The notes beneath the pieces were generated by a model. That model was not told where the DNA came from. It made no database searches and was given only the letters and a program-made list of their open reading frames with translations. The position numbers and the translations under genes were made by a program. Shown here one piece after another: positions 4,083 through 13,107 of a stretch of DNA of 40,345 nt; within the stretch, counting starts at the first letter, position 1; each line of letters opens with the position of its first letter. The stretch spans positions 71,811 to 112,155 of the forward strand of contig JAGOPD010000003.1 of the NCBI GenBank assembly GCA_017992175.1. Reading direction: 5' to 3'. This stretch comes from Candidatus Saccharicenans sp. (lineage in GTDB: Bacteria; Acidobacteriota; Aminicenantia; Aminicenantales; Saccharicenantaceae).

Positions 4083-4141
4083 AACCGGGAAAATTTTGAA
4101 TAGCCCGAGATAATGTGTACCCGAAAAGTGGAGGATCAGAA

Positions 4142-5713
4142 ATGAAGAAAGTAATCAAAGTTATAGGTTTGTTTCTCTGGCTGGCTCTGGCTGGCAGCCT
4201 GCTGGTCTGGGCCCAGGAAGCACAGCCATTGAAGTTGACCCTGGAAGACTGTATCCTGCGGACGATGCAAAACAATCTTGGCGTTACTATCCAGAAACTC
4301 AGTCCGGAAATTTCGGCAGCAGCCCTGTCGAAATCAAAAGAAAAATTTTATCCAACCATGCAGTTTGGTTATACGAGGAGGAGTAATCAGAATCCTTCCT
4401 ATTCTGGCCTGGAAGCGGTGGAGAGTTATAAGACTGATTATAATGACCTCAACGGCCAGGTATCTCAGTTTATTCCTTTCGGCGGAACTTTGAATGTCAG
4501 CCTTGATACTTATAAAAGTTCCACCACCCAGAATTATCAGACCTGGAATCCACGCTATTACAGCACCCTGCGCTTTGATTTTAGCCAGCCCCTGCTGCAA
4601 AATTTTGGCCTGGATATAAGCAAAAAGGAAATTATTATTGCTCAAAGAGGACTTGAGTCTTCCTGGGCTCAAACTGAATCATCGCTGATGAACACCATTT
4701 ATTCAGCTGAACAAGCCTACTGGAACCTGGTCTATGCGATTGAAGATTTAAAGGTGAAGCAGGAATCATTGAAACTGGCTAAGGAACTCCTGGACAAGAA
4801 TCAGAGGTCAGTAGAGATCGGCACACTGGCCCCTCTTGATGTCCTCAGCGCCGAATCAGAAGTAGCGACCAGAGAAGCTGATATTATTAAGGCTGAGGTA
4901 GCAGTCAGAAATGCTGAAGACCAGCTCTGGGTCTTGATGAATATAGCCGATGATGAAAAGAAGCAATATACGACCATAGAGCCAGTTGATCTGCCAAAGT
5001 ATGAACAAAAAGTTATGTCATTGGATGAAGCTGTTGCGGCAGCCCTGGAGAACCGGCCAGACCTGCGGAATCTCAGAATTAGTGCTGATACCCAGATGTT
5101 CAATCTGAAAGTAGCCAAAAATCAGTTGCTGCCGGCTCTAAATCTGGTAGCTTCTTATTATAGCCCCGGCCTTTCCGGTACCCAGCTGATTTATCAGGAT
5201 AATAACCCGCTAACCGGGATCATCGTTGGCACCATCCCCGGGCCGAGAAGCCAGTCATTAAAGGATTCCTTCAAGCTCAAGTATGACAACTGGTCTGTTG
5301 GACTGACTCTGAATATACCTCTTAGTAATGCTATCTCCAGGGCCAGTGTTGCTCAGGCCCGCTTAAATTTCCAGCAAGCCTCCCTCAATCTGAAACAACA
5401 GGAGCAGCAGGCCATGCTGGAAGTCAAAACTGCTTTGAGAACAGTTGAAGCCAATATGAAAGGTGTTCAGGCCTATAAATCCGCCCGGGAATTGCAGGCC
5501 CAAAAACTGGCGGCCGAGGAAGAAAAGCTTAAGGTTGGGCAGAGCACTAATTATACCGTGCTGCAATATCAACGGGATCTGGCTGCGGCCCAGAGCTCAG
5601 AGCTTAAAGCGATCATTGATTATAATGTGTCAGTGGCTAATCTGGAAAAAGCCCTGGGCTTAAGCCTCAAGAACCGCAATATTAAACTGACTGAAATGGC
5701 AAGCTCTAACTGA
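4142..5713 (+). CDS. TolC-family outer-membrane efflux protein
   Basis: About 523 residues. A signal peptide (MKKVIKVIGLFLWLALAGSLLVWAQ, cleavage near the Ala-Gln) is followed by two structural repeats, each opening with an OEP-type helix (LTLEDCILRTMQNNLGV and MSLDEAVAAALENRPDLRNL). The long Ala/Gln/Glu-rich helices and the internal duplication are diagnostic of trimeric TolC channels. I chose the ATG at 4142 because GGAGG stands 8 nt before it and the signal peptide starts there; an in-frame ATG at 4115 would add nine polar residues. It is the last gene of the macA-ABC operon, 59 nt after the permease, and a terminator follows at once, so it very likely supplies the exit duct for that pump. 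Confidence 0.9.
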   Translation: MKKVIKVIGLFLWLALAGSLLVWAQEAQPLKLTLEDCILRTMQNNLGVTIQKLSPEISAAALSKSKEKFYPTMQFGYTRRSNQNPSYSGLEAVESYKTDYNDLNGQVSQFIPFGGTLNVSLDTYKSSTTQNYQTWNPRYYSTLRFDFSQPLLQNFGLDISKKEIIIAQRGLESSWAQTESSLMNTIYSAEQAYWNLVYAIEDLKVKQESLKLAKELLDKNQRSVEIGTLAPLDVLSAESEVATREADIIKAEVAVRNAEDQLWVLMNIADDEKKQYTTIEPVDLPKYEQKVMSLDEAVAAALENRPDLRNLRISADTQMFNLKVAKNQLLPALNLVASYYSPGLSGTQLIYQDNNPLTGIIVGTIPGPRSQSLKDSFKLKYDNWSVGLTLNIPLSNAISRASVAQARLNFQQASLNLKQQEQQAMLEVKTALRTVEANMKGVQAYKSARELQAQKLAAEEEKLKVGQSTNYTVLQYQRDLAAAQSSELKAIIDYNVSVANLEKALGLSLKNRNIKLTEMASSN

Positions 5714-5744
5714 GACAGCTCTGCCTGTAAATTCTCTGATAGAA

Positions 5745-5787
5745 GGCCAGCCGGATCAATGGTTATTGATCAGGCTGGCCTTTTTTT
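5745..5787 (+). terminator. Rho-independent terminator of the macA-ABC-tolC operon
   Basis: The arms GGCCAGCCGGATCAAT and ATTGATCAGGCTGGCC form a long stem with one bulge and a 4-nt loop, followed by seven T. The hairpin overlaps the last codons and stop of the convergent RND transporter gene (from 5763), so that gene ends within the structure. Confidence 0.9.
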
Positions 5788-8700
5788 ATTACCTGTTTTC
5801 TCATCAGCCATTGATAAAAAACAGGCAGGACAAGCATGGTCAGGATGGTGGAGGTAACCAGTCCGCCGATCACCACAATAGCTAAGGGCCGCTGAATCTC
5901 AGCCCCGGGGCCCTGAGCGAAGATCAGAGGAACTAAGCCGAGAAAAGTGGTGGTGGCGGTCATCAACACTGGCCTGAGCCTTTTCTGGGCGCCGGTGATG
6001 ATGGCTTCCTGGAGAGGCCGGCCTTCGGCCAGTAGCTGCTGAAAATAACTGATAAGAACTACACCGTTTAATACTGCTATCCCCATCAAAGCTATAAAGC
6101 CAACCGAAGCCGGGACTGATAAATATGAGCCGGATAGCCACAAAGAGAACACTCCGCCAATCAAAGCAAAAGGCAGGTTGAGCAGCACCAGTCCCGCCAG
6201 TTTAAAAGAATCAAAAGTCGAAAAAAGCAGAAAGAAGACGAGACAGATGGTTAAAGGCACAATTATGGCCAGCCGCCTCATGGCCCTTTGCTGGTTCTCA
6301 AACTGGCCGCCCCATTCCAGCCGGTAGCCTTCTGGCAGGCTGACTTTTTCTTTAATCTTCTGTTTAGCCTCAGTGACGAATCCGCCCAGATCCCGGTCGG
6401 AAACATTAACTTCGATGCCAGTTCTCCGGAAACCAGCCTCCCGGCTGATTTCCGCCGGGCCTTCTTCAATGCCGATTCTGGCCAGCTCACCGAGGGGAAT
6501 CCGGTAGCCAGCCGGGGCATCAACCAGCAGGTTTTTTAAATTGTCAATCGAATTTCTCTTATCTTCAGGGTAGCGAATGACGAGATCATACATCCTTTCG
6601 CCTTCATAGATGGTGGTAGCAGCCTTACCGCCGACAGCGATCTCGACCAGATTAAGGACGTCAGCTGCCCGCAAACCATATTTTTTTAAACTGTTCCTGT
6701 CGATATCAATTATCATGTAGGGCTGCCCGGATATCCTTTCTACCACCAGGTCCGTAGCTCCCCTGGTTTGAGCTACTATCCTGGCGATTTCCTCGGCTTT
6801 GTTCTTCAGGATGTCAAGGTCATCGCCGAAAAGCTTGATGATCAACTGGGCCCTGGTCCCGGCCACCAGTTCATCTATCCGGCAGGCGATTGGCTGGCTG
6901 AAAGCAAAAGAAATACCTGGTATGTCGGAAATGGCCTCTCTCATCTTATCAGTTAATTCTTCCCGGCTTCGGGCTGAAACCCACTCCGACCTCGGCCGGA
7001 GAGAACCAACAAAGCCGGTTTTTTCCACTCCCCTGGCCTCTAAGGCAATGCCAGTCTGGCCGGTTCTGGAAACAATTGTTTCCAGCTCTGGAAACTTTTT
7101 TAATCTTTTCTCTATCTCACCGGTCGTGGCCATAGCCTGACTCAATGAAACTCCAGGCAGCATCTGAAAATCCATATCAAAGGCACCTTCATCCATGATC
7201 GGCATGAATTCCCGGCCAAGGTGAGGGCCAAGATAAATAGCTGCTCCCAGCAGGCAGAGCATCGCCACGACAACCAACCGGCCATGCTTAAGGGCAAACC
7301 TGACAAGAGGAGTATAGAGCCGGTTTAACCAGGTTATTAAACCATCTTCTTTCCCCCGCCCGGGTCTTAGCAGAAGATAGGCAAGTCCCGGGATGATCAG
7401 CAGGGAAATGGTCAAAGAGCATAAGATGGCAATAGATAACGACAGGGCTAAAGGAGAAAACATTTTTCCCTCTATTCCCTGCAGGCTTAATAGAGGAAGA
7501 AAAGTTAGAGCGATGATTAATTCGCCAAAGATACTTGGTTTCCGGACTTCGATAATGGCTTTGAAAAAAGTTCGTTCATCTTTTAACCCCGTTTCAGCCA
7601 GATGGCGCTGGATATTTTCAACCTGAATAATAGCGGCATCAATCATCATGCCGATTGAAATGGCTAATCCCCCGAGCGTCATCAAATTAGCGGTCAGCCC
7701 GGCTTGTTTCATGACGACGAAGGTCAGAAGAACAGTTAAGGGCAGAGCCAGGACGGCGACCAAAGAGCTGCGAAAACTCCGGAGAAATACGAATAAGATC
7801 AGAACAACGAGAAGAGCCCCAATGAGCAAGGCCTCGACGATCGTCCTGACGCTGGCGGTGACAATATCGGTCCTTTTGTAAAATGGAACTATTTTCAACC
7901 CGTCCGGCAGCAACTGACTGGAGTTAATCTCTTCGACCTTTTTCTCAATTCTTCTGGTCACTTCCTGACTATTTTCTCCAGCCAGCATCAAGACAATACC
8001 GCCCACAGCTTCAGTTTCTCCATTTTTTATGGCTCCCCCCTGGCGGATAGCCTGTCCTTCTTCGACCTGAGCCACATCCCGAAGGACAACCTGGGCTCCG
8101 TGGTCTGTTTTTAGAATGGTTTCATTAATATCTTCCAGCCGGCGGAAAAGGCCGGTGCCGCGGACGATGAATTGCTGCTCTCCCCTTTCCACTATGTTGC
8201 CGCCAGTGTTTAAATTATTGCTCTGAATAGCTTCAACAATATCTTCTAAGGTCAGATCATATTTGACCAATTTTTCGGGCTGCACTTTTACCAGATATTG
8301 CTTAATATAACCGCCGAAGGAATTAACTTCGCTTACTCCCTCCAGGCTCTTAAAAAAAGGAGAAACCACCCAGTCCTGAACCGTTCTTAATTCGGTCAGA
8401 TATTTAATCTGGTCCTGGTCATTAGCCGGGACCTTTCCCTCCAGAGTATATTGATAGATTTCACCCATGGGTGTGGCAATCGGCCCCAGGGTAATTTTTA
8501 CCTGCTCGGGTACTTTTTCCTTAGCCTCGGTTAATCTTTCAAAAGCTTGCTGGCGGGCAAAATAAAGGTCAGTCTTATCTTCAAAAACAGCGGTCACCAC
8601 TGATAATCCAAACCTGGAGATCGAACGTAGCTGCTTTAGTCTGGGCAGGCCGCGGAGGGTGGTTTCAAGGGGAAAGGTGACAAACTTTTCGACTTCATAG

Positions 8701-8873
8701 GGCGAATAACCAGGGGCTGAAGCCAGTATTTCTACCTGGACACTGGTTATGTCGGGGAAAGCATCAACCGGGATAGTAAGAAAAGAATAAATTCCGGCAC
8801 CCGTAATAAGCAGGATGAGAATTACGACCAGCAGGCGCTCTCTTAAAGAAAAACTTATCAGCTTGTCAATCAT
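5763..8873 (-). CDS. CusA/CzcA-family heavy-metal efflux RND transporter
   Basis: A proton-driven inner-membrane pump of 1036 residues with the standard RND plan: TM1, a large periplasmic loop, TM2-6, TM7 (near 540), a second periplasmic loop and TM8-12. The TM4 motif at about residues 401-420 reads AISIGMMIDAAIIQVEN: Asp412 and Glu419 are kept, but the first Asp of the DFG found in zinc/cobalt CzcA pumps is Ser406. That IG...DAA pattern is closer to CusA-type (Cu/Ag) pumps. DEGAFDMDFQMLPG in the second loop supplies extra Met residues near the region where CusA binds metal, though I cannot align them safely. It is the last gene of its operon, 8 nt after the adaptor. Metal specificity is inference. 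Confidence 0.93.
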   Translation of the reverse strand: MIDKLISFSLRERLLVVILILLITGAGIYSFLTIPVDAFPDITSVQVEILASAPGYSPYEVEKFVTFPLETTLRGLPRLKQLRSISRFGLSVVTAVFEDKTDLYFARQQAFERLTEAKEKVPEQVKITLGPIATPMGEIYQYTLEGKVPANDQDQIKYLTELRTVQDWVVSPFFKSLEGVSEVNSFGGYIKQYLVKVQPEKLVKYDLTLEDIVEAIQSNNLNTGGNIVERGEQQFIVRGTGLFRRLEDINETILKTDHGAQVVLRDVAQVEEGQAIRQGGAIKNGETEAVGGIVLMLAGENSQEVTRRIEKKVEEINSSQLLPDGLKIVPFYKRTDIVTASVRTIVEALLIGALLVVLILFVFLRSFRSSLVAVLALPLTVLLTFVVMKQAGLTANLMTLGGLAISIGMMIDAAIIQVENIQRHLAETGLKDERTFFKAIIEVRKPSIFGELIIALTFLPLLSLQGIEGKMFSPLALSLSIAILCSLTISLLIIPGLAYLLLRPGRGKEDGLITWLNRLYTPLVRFALKHGRLVVVAMLCLLGAAIYLGPHLGREFMPIMDEGAFDMDFQMLPGVSLSQAMATTGEIEKRLKKFPELETIVSRTGQTGIALEARGVEKTGFVGSLRPRSEWVSARSREELTDKMREAISDIPGISFAFSQPIACRIDELVAGTRAQLIIKLFGDDLDILKNKAEEIARIVAQTRGATDLVVERISGQPYMIIDIDRNSLKKYGLRAADVLNLVEIAVGGKAATTIYEGERMYDLVIRYPEDKRNSIDNLKNLLVDAPAGYRIPLGELARIGIEEGPAEISREAGFRRTGIEVNVSDRDLGGFVTEAKQKIKEKVSLPEGYRLEWGGQFENQQRAMRRLAIIVPLTICLVFFLLFSTFDSFKLAGLVLLNLPFALIGGVFSLWLSGSYLSVPASVGFIALMGIAVLNGVVLISYFQQLLAEGRPLQEAIITGAQKRLRPVLMTATTTFLGLVPLIFAQGPGAEIQRPLAIVVIGGLVTSTILTMLVLPVFYQWLMRKQVIKKGQPDQ

Positions 8874-8881
8874 CTGGTGTC

Positions 8882-10024
8882 TTACTCCTCGCCAAAGGTG
8901 TTCTTAAGAAGCTCTGATTTCAAAATAAAGGATCCACGGGAAACATAGCGGTCGCCAGCGGCCAGGCCCTTGACGACTGGCCTCCAGCCATTGACCGGAC
9001 TGCCTGCCTCTATTTGTTTAATAACAAAAACACCTTGAGTCTCAGGAACGAAGACCACTGTCTGGCCTGAAATGGTCTGAACCGCTTCTTCCGGCACGGC
9101 TAAAGCCTCAAGGCCGGGTAAAAGAATAGTAATGTCAGCAAACATACCCGGCCGGAGCTCCCCTTTTTCATTCTTGACCTCCAGTCTGGCTTTAACTGTT
9201 CTGGTTGAAGTTTCGATGACCGGGGCCAGAAAGGTAATTTGGCCCTGATAGGAACGTCCGGGAAAAGCACTGACCTCAACTACTGCTGGCTGGCCGGGTT
9301 GGATAAGCTCTATATCCTTTTCCTGAACCCTGGCTTCTACCCAGAGCCGGTCGAGGCTGGCCACTTCCATCAGGAGAGTTCCTTCTTCCACCCTGTCCCC
9401 CTTGAGAATTTCGCATTTTATTATCTGGCCGGAGAGCGGAGAAGTGACAGGCAGGAGATTGTCCTCATTCTGGCTCGAATTCAAAGCCTCAATTTGATCT
9501 TCGGTTAGTCCCAGCAATTTAAGCTTTTTCCGGGCTGAGCTGACCAGGGTTCTGGCTGCTGCCTGGACCTCTGAATTTTGCCCGATGAGTCTTTCATATC
9601 TTTCCTCTGCCAGTTTTAGCTCTGAAGCCGCTTCGATAAATTGAAGGCTGAAAAGCCTCAAGACGGTCTGTCCGCTTCTAACCGGATAGCCTTCATAGAC
9701 CAGCAGATCATCCACCCGGCCGGCTGTCCTGGCGGTTAGCCGGACATAAGACCGGGGATTGAACTGGATTTCACCCGGAACTCTGAGCTCCTGATTTATT
9801 TTGATCGGTTTTAGTTCAGATATTTCCAGGCCGGAGGTCTGGATGGCAGCCTCCGACAGCCGGACTCTGTCGCCTGACGGAAGCCGGGTGCTGTCAGCCT
9901 CAGACTCTGCCCTGTCCTGGGCCGGTCCAGAACAGGCAGGATAAATAATCAAGGCGCCCGCCAGGAGCAAAACAGCTGATATAATTTTTATTTTTTTACT
10001 TGCTATATTTTTAAAGCTCATCAT
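8882..10024 (-). CDS. CusB/CzcB-type RND efflux adaptor, probable lipoprotein
   Basis: A membrane-fusion protein of about 380 residues. After a basic N-terminus and a hydrophobic stretch comes a cysteine (LIIYPACSG) that could be lipidated, although Tyr at -3 makes the lipobox weak. Then follow a beta-barrel/lipoyl half (VRLTARTAGRVDDLLVYEGYPVRSGQ), a helical hairpin (about 125-185), the second lipoyl half (LPVTSPLSGQIIKCEILKGDRVEEGT), a beta-barrel (VQEKDIELIQPGQPAVVEV) and a membrane-proximal domain. AAGGTG lies just before tandem ATGs at 10024 and 10021, so I start there; an ATG at 10045 has no ribosome binding site. It bridges the pump to the outer-membrane factor encoded just upstream. 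There is no N-terminal CusF-like metal domain. Confidence 0.9.
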   Translation of the reverse strand: MMSFKNIASKKIKIISAVLLLAGALIIYPACSGPAQDRAESEADSTRLPSGDRVRLSEAAIQTSGLEISELKPIKINQELRVPGEIQFNPRSYVRLTARTAGRVDDLLVYEGYPVRSGQTVLRLFSLQFIEAASELKLAEERYERLIGQNSEVQAAARTLVSSARKKLKLLGLTEDQIEALNSSQNEDNLLPVTSPLSGQIIKCEILKGDRVEEGTLLMEVASLDRLWVEARVQEKDIELIQPGQPAVVEVSAFPGRSYQGQITFLAPVIETSTRTVKARLEVKNEKGELRPGMFADITILLPGLEALAVPEEAVQTISGQTVVFVPETQGVFVIKQIEAGSPVNGWRPVVKGLAAGDRYVSRGSFILKSELLKNTFGEE

Positions 10025-10065
10025 GGTCACCTTTAGTTTTTTCATTCTGAAAATAGATAGCGGTG

Positions 10066-11295
10066 TTATTCATAATCTTCTCCAGCCGAATAAAAGTCAG
10101 CCAGAGCGCAGAGATAAAAATAGAGAGCCCGCTGATATTCGAAATTCATCTCCCGGGTAGCCTGGAACAGATCGAGTAAATGGAGTGAATCCAGTTGCCC
10201 GAGACGGTAGGCGTTAAGAGCTTTTTCCAGCTCAGCCTTTGAATCTTCGAGCAGGCTTTCTTCAAAAATTTTGACCTGCTGACGGGTCTGATCAAGGCCA
10301 GCCAGGGCCAGCTTTTTCTGACTTTCAAAGAATCTTTCGGCTGCTTTCTGGCTGAGAGAAGCTTTCTGCTTTTCAGACTCGGCCAGCAGTTTTTCTCCTT
10401 TGAGGTTTTTTCTTGAAAAAAGGGGAAAATTGACGCCCAGGCTGAAGCCGGCAGCTCCCCAGCGGCGGCTGGGGGCAAAAACACTCAAGGAGAAGTCCGG
10501 CCATCTGTCCTTCAGGGCGAGTTTGCTCAAGAGTTCCGACCGGTCTTTTTTCACCCTGGCCAGTTTGAGAGCCGGGCTGGACAGCCTGGCCTTTTCCACT
10601 AAAACTTCAGGCTTGTCCGGTAGATCCTGAAAGGCCAGCGTCGAAGTTAAATGGATGACTGTTTCCTCTTCGAGTCCGACCAGGAGCTTTAAACGGGAGA
10701 GATCGGCCGCCAGCTCCTGCCTGGCTGCATACAGGTCGTTCTGGCTGCGGGCCATTTCCATTTTGAGGCGCAGGACTTCAGCGTAGGGCACTGCACCCAG
10801 CGAGTAGCGAGCCAGAGCATTTTCCTGGATATCGGCCAGAACCTCAAGACTCTGACCGAGGAAATAAACAGCTTGCTGGCCCAGGAGGCATTTTAAATAA
10901 GCTTTTTTGACCTGAGTGGCCAGCAAGATTTTTCCCCGTTCGAGCCGCAGGCTGGCTTCCTGTTCATAAGTCTCCCCGATGTTTGATTTAAGACTCAATT
11001 TGCCCGGAAAAGGCAGAGGCTGAGTTAAGCCGAGACTGTATTCAGGGTCATTCTGCTTGGCCCGCTCGGTAAAACCGAGACCCTCAACCGAGACACCCGC
11101 CTCAGCCGCTGGCCAGGCTGATTCAATCAGGGTTGAAGCCCTGGCACTTTGCCTCTGCTCCTTTAGCAATTTTAATCCTGGCTCATGGTCAAAGGCGACC
11201 GCCACCGCTTCCTCCAGGCTCAAATTCACCTCATTAATGGCGGCTGCCTGGGGCCAGGATAGGACTATAGATAAAAATATGATTAAAAAAGGCAT
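10066..11295 (-). CDS. TolC/CusC-family outer-membrane factor of the heavy-metal RND system
   Basis: About 409 residues. A signal peptide (MPFLIIFLSIVLSWPQAAA) precedes an outer-membrane-efflux repeat (NLSLEEAVAVAFDHEPGLKLLKEQ) and long Ala/Leu/Glu-rich helices; a second repeat begins near PEVLVEKARLSSPALKLARVKK. The ATG at 11295 is preceded by GGTGGAGG at a proper distance; an in-frame TTG at 11313 lies upstream of that ribosome binding site and is unlikely. It is somewhat short for a TolC protein, as is common for CzcC-like members. It lies second in the operon, between the small membrane protein and the adaptor. Confidence 0.88.
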   Translation of the reverse strand: MPFLIIFLSIVLSWPQAAAINEVNLSLEEAVAVAFDHEPGLKLLKEQRQSARASTLIESAWPAAEAGVSVEGLGFTERAKQNDPEYSLGLTQPLPFPGKLSLKSNIGETYEQEASLRLERGKILLATQVKKAYLKCLLGQQAVYFLGQSLEVLADIQENALARYSLGAVPYAEVLRLKMEMARSQNDLYAARQELAADLSRLKLLVGLEEETVIHLTSTLAFQDLPDKPEVLVEKARLSSPALKLARVKKDRSELLSKLALKDRWPDFSLSVFAPSRRWGAAGFSLGVNFPLFSRKNLKGEKLLAESEKQKASLSQKAAERFFESQKKLALAGLDQTRQQVKIFEESLLEDSKAELEKALNAYRLGQLDSLHLLDLFQATREMNFEYQRALYFYLCALADFYSAGEDYE

Positions 11296-11340
11296 AGCTA
11301 CCTCCACCGGCAAGTTATTGGGGGGACAAAGAAAAAAGGT

Positions 11341-11607
11341 TTAATCCGGTGGATGAAAAATGGCCGGAATGAAGTCGGCCGGCAGGAGAGCGCTCTGTTC
11401 TAAGTAAATCATCTGCCGCCCGCTGCCAGCTGGCTGAGTTAAATCGAGCCAGCTAAAAACGGGCTGGCCTACAGCCTGATGGATGGGGCTTAACAGATGA
11501 TGAAACTCTTCATGGCAGAAAAAGTCATGAACGACAATATGACTTAAAGAAAAAGCAGCCAGCAACATGAATAGAAGGAAAATCCAGGTCGTCCGGCTGG
11601 CTTGCAT
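11341..11607 (-). CDS. Small His/Cys-rich membrane-anchored protein, first gene of the heavy-metal efflux operon
   Basis: An 88-residue protein I do not recognise. The N-terminal hydrophobic segment TTWIFLLFMLLAAFSLSHIVV is a signal peptide or TM. Directly after it comes a cluster of potential metal ligands, HDFFCHEEFHHLLSPIH, with one Cys and five His in 17 residues plus a His just before. The rest is soluble and ends in FIPAIFHPPD. The frame is open to 11688, but the stretch upstream of the ATG at 11607 is occupied by a near-perfect promoter whose -10 ends 7 nt before this ATG, so 11607 is the likely start, on a leaderless mRNA. A metal-binding accessory or chaperone role is inferred from the ligands and the operon. 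Confidence 0.6.
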   Translation of the reverse strand: MQASRTTWIFLLFMLLAAFSLSHIVVHDFFCHEEFHHLLSPIHQAVGQPVFSWLDLTQPAGSGRQMIYLEQSALLPADFIPAIFHPPD

Positions 11608-11614
11608 AGAAAAG

Positions 11615-11643
11615 ATTTTAGACTTTAGTCTTAAATATGTCAA
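11615..11643 (-). promoter_or_regulatory. Promoter of the heavy-metal efflux operon with an operator-like dyad in its spacer
   Basis: On the minus strand the -35 is TTGACA (11643-11638), the spacer 17 bp and the -10 TAAAAT (11620-11615). The arms ATTTAAGACT and AGTCTAAAAT, separated by AA, form a dyad with 9 of 10 positions matching; it covers most of the spacer and overlaps the -10. The ATG at 11607 is 7 nt past the -10, so transcription should start at or next to the start codon. A repressor bound to the dyad would block RNA polymerase. A MerR-type activator is less likely because its promoters have 19-20 bp spacers. No regulator gene lies nearby. Confidence 0.75.
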
Positions 11644-11767
11644 AAATATTTTGCCTTCTAAAGATTCAGCTCCGGCTGGCCGGAACAAACTTTTTTATTG
11701 CAAATCAATTTTTATCGTGTTAGCATTTAAATAATAAATATCGCTGATCACATTAAGTGAGGGATCA

Positions 11768-12142
11768 ATGCAAAGAAGACTGATGCGTCCTAATCTTTCT
11801 GAAGTCAAGGAAAAAATGAACAGAGAAGCTAAGGAAGCGGCTGAAGCTAAAAAGAAAATACCGCCGCCGACCGATACTCATGCTGAAAATTATTATTTTC
11901 TAAAACAGATGAACAAAAAAACGCTGATGGCGGTAGCCCTGGCTGATGGGGAGCAGGTTGAAGGTTATATAGAATGGTATGACCGGAATTGTTTTAAGCT
12001 CAACCGCCGGGACGCCCCCAATCTCCTTATTTATAAACGTCAGGTAAAGTACCTTTATAAGCTGGAAGCTGAAGCGGAACCAGAATCTGAAAAAGGGCCA
12101 AAGAACAGGGCTGAAAGTACGGACGCCAGAAAAAATAAATGA
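11768..12142 (+). CDS. Hfq-like Sm-fold protein with N- and C-terminal extensions
   Basis: A 124-residue protein with a central domain (about residues 38-100) that follows the Hfq/Sm pattern: an N-terminal helix (AENYYFLKQMNKKTLMAVA), then VALADGEQVEGYIEWYDRNCFKL, matching the Sm1 phrase V.L.nG..l.G.i..fD.f.i.L, then LLIYKRQVKYLYK, matching Sm2 around the YKHAIS of Hfq. The second catalytic-looking His of YKH is Arg here, so the uridine-binding pocket may differ. The flanks are long, charged and probably disordered (Lys/Ala/Glu-rich at the N-terminus, acidic then basic at the C-terminus). GAGGG precedes the ATG. Its stop overlaps the pdxA start (ATGA). RNA binding is inferred from fold resemblance only. 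Confidence 0.6.
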   Translation: MQRRLMRPNLSEVKEKMNREAKEAAEAKKKIPPPTDTHAENYYFLKQMNKKTLMAVALADGEQVEGYIEWYDRNCFKLNRRDAPNLLIYKRQVKYLYKLEAEAEPESEKGPKNRAESTDARKNK

Positions 12143-13107
12143 CTTCATTTAAAATTGGCCTGACTCTGGGGGACCCCGGAGGCATCGGGCCGGAACTCCT
12201 TCTCAAACTCTTAGCGGAGCCGTCAAATCTTCCCCCGGCTGAGTTTATAATTTACGGACAGGCAGCTATTCTTGATTTCTGGGCCAGGAAATTAAATTTC
12301 CAGCCGGGCTGGCCAGATTGGAGAGAGGCTGGGCGGCTAGTATTTTTACAGGAGACAGGTCAAGCCCTGAAAACAATCACCATTGGCCAGCCTTCAGCTG
12401 AGAACGGTCTGGTTTCTTTCTCCTTTTTCGAGGCTGCGGTCAAAGCCGCCAGAGAAAGAGAAATTCAAGCCGTGGTAACCGCCCCGGTTTCCAAGACTGC
12501 CTGGAGCCAGGCCGGCCTGTCTTATAAAGGCCATACTGAGTACCTGGAAAAATTCTATCCGGAAGCCATCATGAGTTTCTGGTCAGACAGGTTGAGAGTG
12601 GCTCTTTTTACCCATCACCTGTCTCTCCGGGAAGCAATAGACAGGGTTAAGAAGGGCAACCTGATCAAATTTTTTAAAAATCTCAAGCAAGCTCTGGAGG
12701 CTGCCCGAACGGGGGTAAGAGAAATTCTGGTCTGTGGCCTTAACCCTCATGCCGGCGAAGAGGGCACTATCGGTCAGGAAGAACAGGAAGAAATAATTCC
12801 AGCCTTAGTGGAATTGAAGAAAACAGGGCTGGAGATCAATGGGCCATTTCCGGCTGATACTATTTATCTTCAGGCTATTGATCATCCAGAGAAGCTGGTG
12901 GTCAGCCTGTATCATGATCAGGGCTTGATAGCCTTTAAGCTCCTCTCTTTTGAGCGAGGGGTTAACCTGACTCTTGGCTTGCCCTTCATCCGTACCTCGC
13001 CAGACCATGGAACAGCCTTTGATTTAGCTGGTTGCGGACAGGCTTCGCCGGCCAGCCTGAAACAGGCTATCTGGCTGGCCTGGGACTTTGGTCAGAAAAG
13101 AAATTAG
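12139..13107 (+). CDS. pdxA: 4-hydroxythreonine-4-phosphate dehydrogenase PdxA
   Basis: This NAD-dependent enzyme of the DXP-dependent pyridoxal phosphate pathway oxidises and decarboxylates 4-phosphohydroxy-threonine. The 322 residues show the family phrases in order: LGDPGGIGPELLLK (residues 10-23), VVTAPVSKTAW, YKGHTEYLEK (the metal/substrate His), LNPHAGEEGTIG, GPFPADTIY, LYHDQGLIAFKLL (metal His-Asp) and RTSPDHGTAFDLAG near the C-terminus. The length is normal for the family. Translation is coupled to the Hfq-like gene through a 4-nt ATGA overlap, an unusual partner for pdxA, which elsewhere often sits with rsmA or surA. No other vitamin B6 gene is present in the window. Confidence 0.95.
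   Translation: MTSFKIGLTLGDPGGIGPELLLKLLAEPSNLPPAEFIIYGQAAILDFWARKLNFQPGWPDWREAGRLVFLQETGQALKTITIGQPSAENGLVSFSFFEAAVKAAREREIQAVVTAPVSKTAWSQAGLSYKGHTEYLEKFYPEAIMSFWSDRLRVALFTHHLSLREAIDRVKKGNLIKFFKNLKQALEAARTGVREILVCGLNPHAGEEGTIGQEEQEEIIPALVELKKTGLEINGPFPADTIYLQAIDHPEKLVVSLYHDQGLIAFKLLSFERGVNLTLGLPFIRTSPDHGTAFDLAGCGQASPASLKQAIWLAWDFGQKRN

Follow-up and report, generated by a model that had tools for sequence, protein, structure and literature searches.

The window, by which is meant the whole 40,345-nt stretch of DNA that was analysed, contains at positions 11768–12142 of the forward strand a single open reading frame encoding a protein of 124 amino acids, referred to here as the Hfq-like protein. 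The chain can be divided into an N-terminal arm of the RKLIRPxLSE type, an Sm core (residues 38–98) and a variable, charged C-terminal tail. The end of the gene overlaps the start of the next gene on the same strand, pdxA (12139–13107), by 4 nt in the form of an ATGA beginning at 12139. The product of this second gene is identified as 4-hydroxythreonine-4-phosphate dehydrogenase by TIGR00557 (327 bits against a cut-off of 290.35) and by the Pfam PdxA model (302 bits), which confirms the overlap with a vitamin B6 gene that had been described in the initial annotation.

A likely promoter is located upstream on the forward strand (11698–11726) and consists of TTGCAA (11698–11703), a 17-nt spacer and an extended −10 element, TGTTAGCAT, with the hexamer TAGCAT (11721–11726). 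The assignment is based on conservation, with the TTG and TGTTA elements being invariant in all 12 of the aligned close relatives, because a generic scan with the promoter consensus did not report the conserved element at 11698–11726. A likely ribosome-binding site, GAGGG (11759–11763, forward strand), was read from the sequence and is also seen 5′ of the ATG in aligned relatives. No Rfam family reached its gathering score in the 40,345-nt window.

Further upstream, a small open reading frame on the reverse strand (11341–11688) encodes a product with an HDFxCHEExH pattern and without a Pfam match, and is situated between the Hfq-like gene and an RND-type efflux set. Judging by the appearance of the translations, this set (4115–11313) comprises two TolC-like outer-membrane factor genes, a membrane-fusion protein and a CusA/CzcA-like RND pump. 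A similar small protein is encoded in 17 related loci, mostly as the opposite-strand upstream neighbour; in 38 loci, genes for related pumps are found upstream of the Hfq-like gene. The small protein may bind metal as a partner of the efflux system.

The Sm1-like and Sm2-like stretches that led the initial annotation to propose an Hfq-type protein are both present (residues 56–78 and 86–98, respectively), and several comparisons indicate that the resemblance goes beyond chance. A profile search of the Hfq-like protein produced a match above the cut-off with the Pfam family Hfq_1 (PF21979; E = 6.9e-08, 32.9 bits, cut-off 27). The score with the Pfam family Hfq (PF17209) was slightly below the cut-off (24.7 bits, cut-off 27), and the scores with the canonical Hfq equivalog TIGR02383 (25.3 bits, cut-off 61.7) and the cyanobacterial Hfq-related model NF047718 (25.8 bits, cut-off 52) fell far below theirs. 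Sequence matches in the PDB are Hfq proteins, including chain 6gwk at 5.1e-05, and all 49 members of a family alignment (A2) match both Hfq_1 and Hfq at E ≤ 0.001. A search for relatives in viral contigs found none.

An AlphaFold2 monomer calculated with the 49 family members as input shows a helix (residues 38–48) and five strands, with a pLDDT of about 91 in the core; the tails are of low confidence and the pTM over the whole chain is 0.44. All 50 of the Foldseek matches listed are Hfq, the best being 6gwk (1.8e-04). Alignment with Synechocystis Hfq (3hfo) using VIA-align gave a Z of 7.8 and an r.m.s.d. of 3.5 over 62 residues; a Z of less than 8 from this program is weak by itself, and both the sequence matches and the Foldseek results agree with it. 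The N-terminal helix, the five strands and the Sm1 and Sm2 motifs that characterize the Sm/Hfq fold superfamily are thus all present, and the predicted structure of the monomer is an Sm fold. Neither of the two outcomes named beforehand as contrary to the Hfq proposal, a fold lacking the Sm barrel or a match to a non-Sm family, was observed.

The Hfq-like gene occupies an old and stable position directly upstream of pdxA. Among 93 loci drawn from the class Aminicenantia and the closest named contigs (L034–L126), 92 have room downstream, and in every one of these the next gene on the same strand is pdxA; the figures refer to loci and not to independent species, since there is partial overlap between the two sets in the organisms sampled. 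In the seven most distant named loci (L127–L133), pdxA is next in one (L131) and absent from this position in six. The overlap is exactly 4 nt in 49 of the 68 named loci for which the start sites could be set, and the pair is retained while the flanking gene pairs change from locus to locus. The adjacency also extends to 12 of 20 other Acidobacteriota families. Several families have the genes for thymidylate kinase, the DNA polymerase III delta-prime subunit and PSP1 (RicT) upstream, as confirmed by Pfam at locus L142; this RicT neighbour of other classes is absent from the present locus. The present arrangements suggest an old gene order tmk–holB–ricT–hfq-like–pdxA, of which Aminicenantia would have kept the pdxA side and some other lineages the tmk–holB side. 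No account of the pairing was found in the open-access literature, coverage of which is incomplete, and by title and abstract none of the papers naming both hfq and pdxA appears to treat the gene pair.

The initial annotation suggested that the protein might be a divergent Hfq for this phylum. It does diverge from canonical Hfq and is widespread in Acidobacteriota, but it is not the phylum's own version of Hfq, since both types are found together in 92 of 297 genomes and the canonical gene stays beside miaA. The Hfq-like type was found in 197 of the 297 genomes using the family profile (E ≤ 1e-9), and canonical Hfq, counted as a PF17209 match of about 50 bits or more, in 143. Outside Aminicenantia, 75 genomes have the Hfq-like type only and 51 the canonical type only, and the two types show no association (Fisher p = 0.70, with genome lists transferred by hand); in a further 46 genomes neither type was detected at the thresholds used. 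Within Aminicenantia, the Hfq-like type is present in 30 of 33 genomes and a PF17209 search found canonical Hfq in none of the 33, making this the only class in which the Hfq-like protein is the sole Hfq found.

A canonical hfq gene usually, although not obligatorily, lies beside miaA. In the other Acidobacteriota, canonical hfq is near miaA in 19 of 20 families and near pdxA in none of the 20. An earlier control had given the same result for pdxA (0 of 30 canonical hfq loci), mostly with loci from one family that also lacks the Hfq-like/pdxA adjacency. The Hfq-like gene adjoins pdxA and not miaA. The initial annotation had pointed to the surroundings of miaA as the place to look for a canonical hfq elsewhere in the genome, and none emerged there: in 12 Aminicenantia genomes, the regions on either side of miaA contain no Hfq. 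The source genome, a MAG, comprises 1.38 Mb, is about 63% complete and is without miaA, and therefore cannot itself decide on a canonical hfq by this route.

In a tree of the Sm core, a branch recovered in 96% of the bootstrap trees separates the Hfq-like type from the other sequences, with the reservation that the 65 columns used give little resolution. The cyanobacterial and Staphylococcus aureus sequences lie on long branches over these columns, and thus no claim is made as to the nearest known Hfq. On the basis of sequence, the protein is assigned to an Hfq clade separate from canonical Hfq; its best matches in named genomes are to Candidatus Saccharicenans and other Aminicenantes, in the phylum Acidobacteriota. 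The simplest reading is that the Hfq-like gene and the canonical hfq, which is linked to miaA, are both old, and that the canonical gene is missing from Aminicenantia.

Comparison with Escherichia coli Hfq, the numbering of which is used here, shows that the surface of the ring known from that protein is partly retained and partly altered in the Hfq-like family. Tyr55 (Tyr or Phe in 48 of 49 members) and Lys56 (invariant) of Sm2 are kept, as are Asp40, Gly29 and Gly34. In the helix from Gln8 to Arg19, for which the register was taken from the HMMER alignment with 6gwk and the comparison is less certain than elsewhere, Gln8 is replaced by Asn, an invariant Lys that is specific to the family stands at Asn13, and Lys is found at both Arg17 and Arg19. 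Other family-specific features are a Lys or Arg at Ser60 and a Tyr at Thr61. The changed positions also include Tyr25 (Val or Ala), Ile30 (Glu), Gln33 (Glu), Phe42 (Asn) and His57 (variable), which are RNA-contacting residues in E. coli Hfq. The distal-face triad of Gram-negative Hfq (Tyr25, Ile30 and Gln33) is thereby replaced, mostly by Val, Glu and Glu.

In the canonical Sm2 signature (Y/F)KH, the His is replaced by Arg in the Hfq-like protein. The resulting YKR was originally regarded as a distinguishing mark but is not special, because the residue following YK varies within the family (Arg in 18 of the 49 members, Ser in 11, Asn in ten and His in four, with Ala, Asp and Lys also occurring). 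Long charged flanks had been cited as a second mark. This description holds for the C-terminal tail, which is charged and poorly conserved; the N-terminal tail, however, differs in kind, in that it carries the motif RKLIRPxLSE, which is conserved across Acidobacteriota, with Arg3, Leu5, Arg7 and Pro8 being invariant in the 49-member alignment.

The interpretation that we favour, with somewhat better than even confidence, is that of a hexameric RNA-binding protein of the Hfq type that has a remodelled RNA surface and is made together with PdxA in an RNase Y setting. The protein, modelled here as a monomer, would form a hexameric ring as other Hfq proteins do. RNA would be bound through the retained Tyr–Lys pair of Sm2 (Tyr89–Lys90 in the Hfq-like protein), a basic rim formed by Lys46, Lys50 and Lys51, and a family-specific basic strand (Lys94 and Lys98), with assistance from the conserved N-terminal arm. 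The distal-face site for A-rich RNA of Gram-negative Hfq would not be used, since its key residues are replaced.

The genomes of the class suggest which RNAs could be involved. RNase Y scores above the cut-off in all 40 of the Aminicenantia-class genomes searched and PSP1/RicT is present in 35, while RNase E/G reached the curated cut-off in none of the 40, with one partial strong match at 192 bits. In Bacillus, RicT is described as part of a complex with RNase Y (PMC10470536). Given the presence of RNase Y and of no recognisable RNase E, the Hfq-like protein may act on RNAs that are turned over by RNase Y, a connection that we infer from co-presence in genomes. PdxJ is found in 39 of the 40 genomes, and PdxA therefore plausibly acts in vitamin B6 synthesis. 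A single promoter would drive expression of both the Hfq-like protein and PdxA, and their translation would be coupled, so that the output of PdxA would follow that of the Hfq-like protein; any control of its own mRNA by the latter would likewise determine the level of PdxA, and an effect on vitamin B6 is conceivable. The most complete version of this picture, in which a second Hfq-type ring, ancient and with an RNA surface and N-terminal arm of its own, is the sole Hfq left in Aminicenantia, operates with RNase Y and is tied to vitamin B6 by the pdxA operon, is rather unlikely to be correct in every part.

An Hfq fold need not imply a small-RNA chaperone, since cyanobacterial Hfq works partly by binding the pilus motor protein PilB1 (PMC4390875). 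By analogy, a role as a protein scaffold is a serious alternative, which we hold as a tentative possibility: the ring could bind partner proteins through the RKLIRP arm, with RNA binding being weak or secondary. The invariance of Arg3, Leu5, Arg7 and Pro8, as might be expected of a docking motif, is consistent with such a role, as are the changes at several RNA-contact positions and the finding that Hfq_1, the best Pfam match, also picks up a cyanobacterium in the control set. However, the Sm2 Lys is invariant and Lys46, Lys51 and Lys94 are nearly so, a pattern that fits nucleic acid binding.

The conservation of the gene pair, mostly with overlapping frames, while the flanking genes changed could also indicate a dedicated vitamin B6 regulator that binds either PdxA or the pdxA segment of the shared mRNA, adjusts vitamin B6 output and has no wider role. 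This is improbable: overlapping translation is frequent in bacterial operons, and several lineages (Bryobacterales and family f15 among them) keep the Hfq-like gene without an adjacent pdxA, so that its function is independent of this neighbour. Lastly, a fast-diverged canonical Hfq filling the ordinary Hfq role would account for the same fold and motifs and for the sole Hfq found in Aminicenantia, but is very unlikely, and simple divergence from canonical Hfq was rejected as the origin of the protein, because 92 genomes contain both types, the tree places them in separate groups and each has its own conserved neighbourhood.

Comparison with the closest known systems shows what is shared and what is not. 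With Hfq_1 (PF21979) and cyanobacterial Hfq (Anabaena 3hfn and Synechocystis 3hfo; NF047718) the family shares the Sm core, a Trp in Sm1 (EWYD versus LWQD) and an Sm2 in which the Lys but not the His is kept; it differs from them in having the RKLIRPxLSE arm and in having pdxA or tmk–holB–ricT as neighbours. With canonical Hfq (TIGR02383, PF17209) it has in common the fold, both Sm motifs and the equivalents of Tyr55, Lys56, Asp40, Gly29 and Gly34, whereas the His of YKH is not kept, the distal-face residues are replaced, the N-terminal arm is long and adjacency to miaA is lacking.

This kind of protein is already known, because a published tree of 798 Hfq sequences places Acidobacteria in a group of their own (PMC7074383, Figure 3) and a Pfam model covers the core. 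As presented in that tree, the two types are not distinguished and neither gene neighbourhood nor function is given. A description of two types that coexist and occupy different conserved neighbourhoods, or of the loss of canonical Hfq in Aminicenantia, was not found in the incompletely covered open-access literature. If the protein is a working RNA-binding regulator, a large and little-studied phylum would have a second line of Hfq, which in Aminicenantia would apparently be the sole one. It would then offer a natural test both of which surfaces of Hfq are indispensable and of the role that Hfq plays in cells that have RNase Y and lack RNase E. The stable link to pdxA, which is absent at canonical hfq loci, provides a concrete lead on function.

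The genomes of family f15 (e.g. G007, G023, G073, G121, G241 and G257; locus L140) each contain at least three Hfq-type matches: one canonical, one of the Hfq-like type and one further, which is sometimes a short frame of about 91–95 amino acids.
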